Part shown: piece after piece, positions 38,457 through 42,465 of the stretch
How positions within the stretch are numbered: position 1 is the stretch's first letter
Layout: every line of letters starts with the position of its first letter
Assembly (NCBI GenBank): GCA_014874485.1
Contig: JADBJK010000024.1
Span: forward strand, 62,001 to 126,000
Length of the DNA: 64,000 bases
DNA from: Chloroflexota bacterium
Lineage (GTDB): Bacteria > Chloroflexota > Anaerolineae > DTLA01
Direction of reading: 5' to 3'
The notes under the pieces: model-generated
Seen by the model: only the letters and a program-made list of their open reading frames with translations
Databases searched by the model: none
Told to the model about the DNA's origin: nothing
Position numbers and translations under genes: made by a program

Positions 38457-38497
38457 CAAAAAGAAAGGGCGGCGCTCTGTGGAATGCACGCCCTTTC
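38457..38497 (-). terminator. Intrinsic terminator of tRNA-Sec gene
   Basis: Minus-strand GAAAGGGCG (38489-38497) pairs with CGCCCTTTC (38463-38471) across a 17-nt loop and is followed by TTTTTG. It begins 12 nt after the tRNA 3' end. Confidence 0.8.
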
Positions 38498-38509
38498 GGT
38501 CCGGCAAGG

Positions 38510-38606
38510 CGGGAGTGGATGGGAGTCGAACCCACCTAGGACGCCTCTGCAGCGCCCCACAGACGGTTTTGAAGACCGCGGAGCCCACCGGGACTCAACC
38601 ACCCCC
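38510..38606 (-). tRNA. selC: Selenocysteine tRNA (anticodon TCA)
   Basis: The 97-nt gene has all bacterial tRNA-Sec hallmarks. There is an 8-bp acceptor stem (GGGGGTGG with CCACTCCC, one G-T), a 6-bp D stem (GAGTCC/GGGCTC) with a 4-nt loop, and anticodon stem GCGGT/ACCGT around loop CTTCAAA (anticodon TCA). A long variable arm (GGGGCGC...) and a 5-bp T stem around TTCGACT complete it. The discriminator is G; CCA is not fully encoded (CCT follows). It reads UGA as selenocysteine, so the genome should also encode SelA, SelB and SelD. No selenoprotein is evident in this window. Confidence 0.93.
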
Positions 38607-38612
38607 ACCGAT

Positions 38613-38641
38613 AGTGTATATGAAATCCCCTTGACCGTCAA
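38613..38641 (-). promoter_or_regulatory. Promoter of tRNA-Sec gene
   Basis: Minus-strand TTGACG (38636-38641), 17 bp, TACACT (38613-38618). The +1 would fall at or within a base or two of the first tRNA nucleotide, so the transcript may have almost no 5' leader. Confidence 0.6.
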
Positions 38642-38706
38642 CTTTGGCAAGGAAGAGACTGGCTTCCGTGTTCCGTTAGTGGATTGCACGCACACGACCC
38701 CGTTCT

Positions 38707-38776
38707 GTCATTGCGAGCGAAGCGAAGCAATCTGCCGCTCCGGGGATTGCTTCGGGGCTTCGCCCCTCGCAATGAC
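38707..38776. repeat. Repeat island 5: single 70-bp hairpin unit
   Basis: The cleanest example of the dispersed family. GTCATTGCGAG (38707-38717) and CTCGCAATGAC (38766-38776) are inverted termini, with internal GCGAAGCAATC and GGATTGCTTCG also pairing around an 11-nt centre. Confidence 0.85.
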
Positions 38777-38801
38777 GTTTACAAATTGGTCAGAGCGCCC
38801 C

Positions 38802-38889: not shown

Positions 38890-41800
38890 ATGATGCGCAC
38901 TCGCTGGGTCTGGCTGGGTATTGTGGCCTTGGCGCTTGTCCTTGGTCCACTGTTCATTCGGGGCCCGGCGAGCGCGGATCCGTCCCTCAGCGTCTGCGCC
39001 TGGGCGAAGGATGAACTGGGCAATGGCATCCCAGGGGCGCTCATGACGCTGTGGGGGCGGAGCGGCAGCACATGGTACACGCTGGCAAGCGGCTACACCG
39101 ATTCCACAGGAAACCGGCTCCTCATCTACACCGGCCCCGACTATGAACGTTACGCCGTAACCGAGAACAACCCCGCGGGCTACGTGTCCGTTTCGGCTTC
39201 GGGCCTGGGCTGGACCACCATCAACGCCGACCGCGTGGAGGCGACCTCACCGCCGCCCAGTTGTGCAACGTTCATTGACCGGCCCACGCAGGCCACGTCA
39301 ACCCCCACGCCGACCCGCACGCGCACCAATACGCCCGGCCCCACGAACACCCCCACCAAGACGCCCTCGGTCGTTACGCTGTACCGAATCCAGGGCAGGG
39401 TGGAGGATACCTTTGGCACCGGCCTGGCGGGCTGGACGGTGCGCGCAGACCTGTGGACGGGCTCGTCCTGGCAGATCTCGGCGGATCTCACCACTACCGC
39501 GTGGGACGGGAGTTTCACCCTGGAGGTGAATACGCTGGGGCTGCCGGGCTACTTCCGCATCGTCCAGTGGCAAATGCGGGACGGCTATACCGCGTTCAGC
39601 GCCTCCAGCACCCTGCCCGGCAGCGTCATCGTGGACGCCACGACGATTCTGACGACTTTGCCGTCGCCGGGGACATGGGGCCAGGCAACCTTCGTGCGTC
39701 AGGCTCCAACGCCGACGCCAACCGCCACAGCGGTGGACAGCCGCATCGTGGGCTACGTGCTGCAGGACTTGCCGGAGCCTATCGCCATCCCTGGGGTTAC
39801 GGTAACCCTGTACCAGAAAATGCCCGACGATTCGCTGGTGCCTCTAGCGGTGGACGTAACCGACGAATTCGGCTTCTTTGAGTTCGTGGGCAAGTGGCCC
39901 AATATCACGTTGCTGCTGGTGGAGACCGATCCCGTGGGGTTCTACTCTACGCGGGCGGTGGGCGATGCCTACTGGCACGTCATCACGCCCAACGAGATTC
40001 AGGGCGATCCTGTGCCGACCCATTCCGACTGCCTGTACTTCTTTGACCTGCCGCTGCCTACGGAAACGCCCACGCCGACGGAAACGCTGACGCCATCGCC
40101 GACGGCCACGACCACGGGGACGAGGACGTCAACGCCCACGTTCACGCCTAGCCCGACGGCGACCGACACACCAACCCCTTCGGCCACGCCAACGGCGACA
40201 CCCACGCCCACCGCGTCCGACACGGCGACGACGACGCCCACAGCCTCGGCGACACGCACCGGCACCGCGACCGGCACGGCCACGCCCTCGCCCACGCCGA
40301 CGTTCACCCCTAGCCCGACGGCGACCGCAACCAATACGCCGACGAATACACCAACCGCAACGCCGACGCCGACGGCCACGCCTTCGCCGACGCCGACGTT
40401 CACCCCTAGTCCGACGGCGACCGCAACGCCTACGCCGACGGCCACGCCGACATTTACGCCGACGTTCACCCACACGCCTACCCATACGTTCACGGCGACA
40501 TCTACGCATACGCCGTCGCCGACGCCTACTCCGACGTTCACGCCGACGCGCACCCCGACCGCAACGCCAACCTACACGAGCACGAACACGCGCACGCCGA
40601 CGGCGACGCGGACGGCGACGCCTACTCGCACGTCCACGCGAACACGGACGCCTACGCCGACCCCCACGTTCACCGCCACCGATACGCCCACGCGAACACC
40701 GACCCGCACGCCGACGGCGACGCGGATTCCGCCGCCGGTCTGCAATGACCGCGTGTGCGCGTGGAAGTACGTGGCCATTGCAGTGGACGCAGACGATGAT
40801 GGGCACTTCTCGCCGGGCGACATCGTGGAGTACACCATCCTCGTGCAGACGAACCTGCCGATTCCCGCCGTGCTGACGTTCAGCGACCAGGTCCCGCCGG
40901 GGACCGCGCTTGTGCCCGGCAGCCTGTCCATCACGCCGGTCGGGCATGTGGTGAGCGAGATACCCATCATCTGCACAGCGCCTGTGGACCCGGGTCAGTC
41001 ATTTGTGATCACCTTCAGGGTCGTGATACTGGCGGGAACCACCCGCATCTGCAACCAGGGCCTTGTGTCCACACGGTGCGAGGTGGAGCAGTGCATCTGC
41101 GACGAGTTGACCGACGACCCGTACACGCCGTACGACGATGACCCCACCTGCTTTGACGTGGTTACGCCGACGGCAACGCCAACCACGACGGCGACGGCAA
41201 CCAACACCCCCACGCCCACGCGGCAGCCGCCTCCGGGTTGTACCGACGACGTCTGCGCCTGGAAGACGGACTTGCTCGTCATAGATGGGGATGGAGATGG
41301 CCTGCCTTCGCCGGGGGACACGATTGAGTACGAGATTCTGGTGCAGAACAACCTGACGATCCCGTCGGTGATGACGTTCACCGATCAGATTCCCGAGGGG
41401 ACGATGCTCGTGCCCGGGAGCCTGTCCATTGAGCCGGTGGGCGAGGTGGTCAGCGAGATACCCATCATCTTCCGCGCCGAACTGGAGCCGCACCAGGGCG
41501 TAACGATTCGGTTCCGTGTGGTCATCCTGGAGGGTGTGGACCGCATCTGCAACAGGGGCCTGGTCGCGATCCGCTGCCAGGAGGAGCAGTGCGTGTGCGA
41601 CGAACTCACGGATGACCCGGACACGCCGCTGGACGACGCGACCTGCACCGATGTGTACCCTCCGCCGCCGCCTTCACCCACTCCGACGCCTTCGCCGACA
41701 CCAACGCCAACCGCGACGCGAACGCCAACGCCGACGCTGACGCCCACTCGCGGCCCAGGCTGGCAGGGACAGTTCTGGAAGCGAGCGGCGCTGGTCAATG

Positions 41801-42465
41801 ACGCCGATTCCAATGGGGTCGCATCGCCGGGGGACACAATCCGCTACACGTTGACCCTGGTGAACAGCCTGCCCACGGCGACCTATGGGCTTCTCGTCGT
41901 GGACAACCTGCCGCCGCAGTTGGAGTACATCGCCGGCAGCCTGGTGCTGTCCCATGGCGTGGTGCTGACCTACAGCCCGCTGCAGGTGTACATAGACACG
42001 CTGAACGCAGGGGCGACGGCCACGATTACGCTGGACCTTCGCGTGCGGGGTTCGGGGCAGGGCAACGCGGTGAACCAGGCGGTTCTGTACGTTGGGTCGT
42101 TGGTCAGTTACAGCGACGATCCCGATACGCCTGCCCCAGGGGATGCGACGGTCATCGTCATCGTCTGGCCGGGGCCGACAGCGACGCCGACGTTGACGGC
42201 GACTTCCACGCCCGTGCCAACGGTTACCGGCCTGCCGACAAACACGCCGACGGCCACGCGGACGGCGACACGGACTCCCACGGCGACGTTCACCCCGCAG
42301 GCCACCGCGACCGCGACGCGCACGCCGACGGCAACGGCGACGCGAACGCCCACAGCCACGCCGCGGCCGGTAACGCGCAGGGTGTTCTTGCCGTTCGTGT
42401 CCAGAGGCCCGTGGTGGAGCGGGGCGGGCGTGCAAGGGCAGACTTCGTTTGCGCAGGGCTGGTAG
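38890..42465 (+). CDS. Large secreted modular protein with PT-rich linkers and DUF11-like repeats
   Basis: 1191-residue surface or secreted protein. The signal peptide ([22 protein letters not shown]) is followed by three beta-sandwich modules resembling SdrB/CnaB-like or carboxypeptidase regulatory folds (about residues 35-380), separated by short PT linkers. A PT-rich stretch of about 220 residues (400-620) follows. Next are two homologous Cys-rich DUF11-type modules ([17 protein letters not shown]... and [17 protein letters not shown]...), each with about eight Cys, then a third DUF11-like module without Cys. Another PT linker ends in [12 protein letters not shown]. No catalytic motif was seen; adhesion or a cell-envelope role is likely. 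ATG 38890 or 38893 is chosen for its ribosome-binding site and signal peptide. Confidence 0.82.

Follow-up and report, generated by a model that had tools for sequence, protein, structure and literature searches.

A solitary tRNA-Sec gene and a large predicted selenoproteome in an Anaerolineae genome

The tRNA-Sec gene described here is almost certainly a functional, single-copy selC that is transcribed alone and serves UGA decoding in its genome. It lies in a 64,000-nucleotide stretch of DNA that was analysed as a whole (the window), which belongs to a metagenome-assembled genome of the class Anaerolineae (3.74 Mb in 122 contigs, 95.7% complete, 3% contamination). The features expected of a functional Sec-decoding trait, namely SelA, SelB and SelD in one genome, conserved genes with in-frame UGA, and SECIS-like hairpins, all occur in this assembly.

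The tRNA-Sec gene and its transcription signals

The gene occupies 38510..38606 on the minus strand, with G1 at 38606, the discriminator G at 38510 and the anticodon TCA. ARAGORN calls it tRNA-SeC(tca) at 38508-38606 on the same strand, and the Rfam model RF01852 matches over its full length (model positions 1-91) at 67.9 bits (gathering score 47, E 1e-11). A stem check found 8/8 pairs in the acceptor (GGGGGUGG/CCACUCCC), 6/6 in the D stem (GAGUCC/GGGCUC, loop CGGU) and 5/5 in the T stem (GUGGG/CCCAU). The anticodon stem has five pairs and a C-C mismatch at the sixth, with the anticodon UCA in the loop CUUCAAA, and the variable arm is long. Both score and structure (8-bp acceptor/5-bp T stem, 6-bp D stem, UCA, long variable arm) thus place the gene in RF01852, and an earlier note that had read it as a complete tRNA-Sec with 8-bp acceptor, 6-bp D stem and TCA anticodon was correct. 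Judged by its sequence, the tRNA itself is canonical, intact and of the ordinary bacterial type, an already known kind of gene. Like the E. coli selC type and RF01852, it has the 8+5 acceptor/T architecture, a 6-bp D stem with a 4-nt loop, the UCA anticodon, a long variable arm and a discriminator G. Unlike them it lacks an encoded CCA (GCCT stands there) and has a start predicted at G1, and its variable loop carries a 5-nt insertion relative to the Rfam model. In a search of the whole assembly, no other tRNA-Sec passed the family cut-off.

Upstream of the gene, a consensus scan identified a -35 box (TTGACG, 38636..38641, minus strand) and a -10 box (TACACT, 38613..38618, minus strand) separated by 17 nt. 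This promoter scores 9/12 in a scan where shuffled sequence gives 0.3 sites per region, and shuffling the 60 bases upstream of the tRNA 200 times never produced as high a score. Both boxes are retained in two other genomes of the same genus, the sole other members of the order in the set examined (L062 and L063), where the arrangements are TTGACG-N17-TACACT-6 nt-G1 and TTGACG-N17-TAGACT-7 nt-G1. The tRNA-Sec flanks of these congeners align at 80-91% identity, with promoter and tRNA conserved.

With 6 nt between the -10 box and G1, the probable transcription start is G1 itself or a neighbouring base. It is rather unlikely that RNase P trims a longer leader in the usual way and that chance promoter placement accounts for the apparent +1 at G1, even though initiation can move by 1-3 nt and the gap between -10 box and G1 spreads from 6 to 27 nt across those tRNA-Sec genes of the Anaerolineae whose promoter is clear. 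Against this reading, the gap hardly varies within the genus, whose three species have 6, 6 and 7 nt despite differences in the intervening bases, and in this genome it is the shortest among the clear tRNA promoters. A predicted start at G1 is therefore well supported inside the genus, without being a rule for the class. In other tRNA genes of the genome whose promoters are clear, the gap measures 8-13 nt and the predicted leader is likewise short, so tRNA-Sec is the extreme of a trend. The description of the gene as having almost no leader thus holds for the placement of its promoter, which the genus conserves, but not as a peculiarity of this tRNA.

Downstream, folding revealed a rho-independent terminator on the minus strand (GAAAGGGCG ... 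CGCCCTTTC followed by TTTTT; 38458..38497), in which the hairpin spans 38497-38463; the 59-nt stretch 38507-38449 that contains it folds at -26.0 kcal/mol. A simple terminator scan did not pick it up because the loop limit of that scan is 8 nt. Promoter scan and hairpin fold together bear out the claim that the tRNA has a promoter and a terminator of its own. The terminator stands between the tRNA and the next gene downstream, an isoaspartyl peptidase/asparaginase family gene (PF01112; 37434..38360, minus strand) with no relation to selenium.

Immediately upstream of the promoter, at 38706-38784, lies a copy of an interspersed palindromic repeat (CATTGCGAGC...GAAGCAATC...CGCAATGAC) that has many other copies; 1.25 Mb of the genome contain CGCAATGAC 359 times, and the window contains it 18 times. 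Beyond it, 38890-42462 on the plus strand holds a 1191-aa reading frame with a signal-peptide-like beginning and no Pfam match.

Selenocysteine machinery and UGA-containing genes

The window itself holds no selA, selB or selD by profile search, and none of its UGAs passed the coding-signal scan convincingly, in agreement with the earlier note, which had seen neither these genes nor a selenoprotein there. The sole match to the SelB profile, at about 56.5 kb, was rejected as a GTPase relative below the cut-off (24.7 bits). Elsewhere in the assembly all three components of the decoding system (TIGR00474/5/6) score above their curated cut-offs: SelA (C120:23622-24953, 592 bits), SelB (C22:138441-140318, 349 bits) and SelD (C120:14696-15628, 372 bits). 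The closest named match of SelA is from Anaerolineae bacterium A05DMB-I-30 (96% identity). A Se/S-carrier-like ORF (PF11823) lies upstream of SelD, which, as in many bacteria, is a UGA gene itself (LASCAG-U-AGKMG on read-through). Unlike a system encoded in one place, the genes here are spread over several contigs away from the tRNA, with SelA/SelD, SelB and tRNA-Sec each on a different contig of the MAG. A binning error is nevertheless unlikely, since both congeneric genomes conserve the tRNA and homologues of five selenoproteins.

A codon-bias scan covered a third of the genome (1.25 Mb in ten contigs with matches from earlier searches, the window's contig in full). We identified ten UGA-containing candidate selenoprotein genes in this third, a number that is a lower bound because of that coverage. 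Besides SelD, family searches with read-through yielded two FdhA-type proteins (C56:75196-77907, TIGR01591; C73:21930-18892, TIGR01553, formate dehydrogenase-N alpha), both with the UGA in the context ARL/ARI-U-HS, and FlpD (C115:21520-21975, motif VAG-U). The codon-bias scan added HdrA (C8, CSI-U-ILGPKM), a thioredoxin (C115, NT-U-SAC), a UshA-like protein (C120, PCG-U), an OsmC-like protein (C22, LAA-U-M), a multihaem cytochrome (C56) and a small thioredoxin-like protein (C115). Pfam and NCBIfam matches back most of these candidates. Other UGA matches, among them C8 +34675, C115 +22644 and C56 +59304, were rejected as junctions between a stop and the next gene, and the CMD/AhpD family of the genome has no in-frame UGA.

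The prediction that UGA-encoded selenocysteine would be found elsewhere in the genome is thus substantiated, as is the expectation that standard annotation would truncate such genes: several are cut or split by standard ORF calling, and under table 11 the UshA-like protein and the cytochrome are listed as shortened ORFs of 251 aa and 362 aa. In all five genes compared, the congeners have UGA at the same codon, and downstream of it their substitutions concentrate at third codon positions. More distant Anaerolineae retain the UGA in the thioredoxin, the OsmC-like protein and the UshA-like protein, where one relative has Cys instead. The last two families are listed in a 2026 review (PMC13188914). 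The curated UshA-like PCGU (seleno)protein (NF041198) and OsmC-like (seleno)protein (NF041052) are the best or near-best profile matches, with Sec at the expected motif; with scores of 161.7 against a cut-off of 275 and 34.8 against 95, respectively, the proteins here are divergent members. Sec-FlpD on C115 (L177:8985-13972) sits between the gene for a 1512-aa HdrA-like fusion protein upstream and a MetF-like gene downstream, a neighbourhood that suggests an electron-bifurcating or folate-linked unit.

The earlier note had proposed a search for in-frame UGA with SECIS elements, and over the 1.25 Mb a SECIS-like hairpin lies downstream of the UGA in 8/10 candidate genes. Both FdhA genes have the loop GGUCU, and the UGAs of SelD and the thioredoxin have no hairpin by the simple SECIS rule. 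Counting only those that fold at <= -5 kcal/mol with a G[G/U] loop, a hairpin follows 7/10 of the UGAs vs 10% of 4068 control codons, and 0/20000 random sets were as low as the candidate set, a P value that is not fully independent because the loop rule was fixed after looking at the folds. General folding z-scores downstream of the UGAs were uninformative.

Could the tRNA be a relic left after the loss of selenocysteine use? It does stand alone among unrelated genes, yet its stems are intact except for one C-C position, its promoter is conserved in three species, and ten UGA genes accompany the machinery. The earlier note had named absence of SelA/SelB/SelD from the genome as the sign of a relic; their presence in the same assembly refutes this reading, to which we give practically no weight. 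It is only marginally less improbable that a variant UCA tRNA suppresses UGA or inserts an amino acid other than Sec. Natural UGA-suppressing tRNAs with a TCA anticodon occur, but the gene shows the identity features of tRNA-Sec (8-bp acceptor, 6-bp D stem, long variable arm), and the UGAs fall at known Sec positions in FdhA, HdrA, SelD and the UshA-like and OsmC-like proteins. Moreover, UGA also works as a normal stop codon here, HdrA and FlpD being examples of genes that end with it, which makes insertion necessarily context-dependent.

In a working selC system, the gene would be transcribed alone from its sigma-70-type promoter, with a start at or next to G1, and the transcript would end at its own terminator and receive CCA post-transcriptionally. 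By analogy with the established bacterial pathway, SerRS would charge the tRNA with serine, SelA would convert the seryl form using selenophosphate from SelD, and SelB would deliver the charged tRNA wherever a SECIS hairpin follows a UGA codon. The sequence directly shows the tRNA with its promoter and terminator, the genes for SelA, SelB and SelD, the UGA genes and the hairpins; from these we infer Sec insertion itself, the transcription start and the origin of the MAG contigs from one organism.

Two candidate selenoprotein families

The chances that the small thioredoxin-like protein and the multihaem cytochrome represent selenoprotein families outside the 2026 inventory seem to us evenly balanced. 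Neither is obviously among the 119 families of that review (PMC13188914), part of which were compared, and both may be new.

The small protein has 117 aa and contains SCFSGGUGPHWSSEETTR (general motif SCxSG(G)UGP..SSEETTR). Its gene adjoins that of the Sec-thioredoxin, both with in-frame UGA, at L177:18593-19659 (C115:26593-27659) and at L268, L270 and L271, so that the pair is present in at least four Anaerolineae genomes (G000, G400, G401 and G402). The relative in G402 has a UGA at the equivalent place, and a match in G409 contains one in-frame UGA as well. DUF1462 gives a weak profile match below its cut-off (E 0.0016), and the archaeal thioredoxin PDB 1nho matches with E 0.001; Sec in the motif sets the small protein apart from DUF1462 and thioredoxin-like proteins. 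DUF1462 (PF07315) is not named in the review (PMC13188914), and no paper in the literature searched mentions it together with a selenoprotein.

The cytochrome is a lipoprotein-like multihaem protein of 466 aa (L205:14132-15529; C56:96132-97529). Its in-frame UGA lies between the first two CxxCH motifs, is followed by a strong hairpin and is conserved in both congeners. An NCBIfam search found no match to the known Sec cytochromes ExtKL NF040886 and TIGR04315, which the review includes (PMC13188914); the nearest family is ExtN/ExtO (43 bits, cut-off 200). A rhodanese-domain gene lies upstream of the cytochrome, and downstream, on the other strand, is a CopA-like ATPase whose N-terminal metal-binding domain is of the UxxU type.

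Distribution in Chloroflexota

Selenocysteine use had been called patchy in Chloroflexota, a description that holds only in part. That some lineages lack SelA is real, but the trait is common: SelA is present in 318/400 sampled genomes (about 80%), 239/307 of those of good quality and 171/222 genera. The Rfam tRNA-Sec tally of 325/400 genomes is inflated, since the controls Caulobacter, Thermus and Thermotoga also give Rfam matches and genomes such as G005, G016, G032 and G247 have weak matches only, without SelA; SelA is the better count.

A 2006 survey credited three selenoproteins to Chloroflexota (PMC1794560). Set against the frequency of SelA, this number makes it probable that annotation misses selenoproteins throughout the phylum. 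The lone tRNA-Sec proved a reliable flag, as following it up revealed a complete Sec system and, in a third of the genome, ten probable selenoproteins, in an order with three genomes in the set examined. The interest lies less in the tRNA than in the unexpectedly large selenoproteome to which it points.
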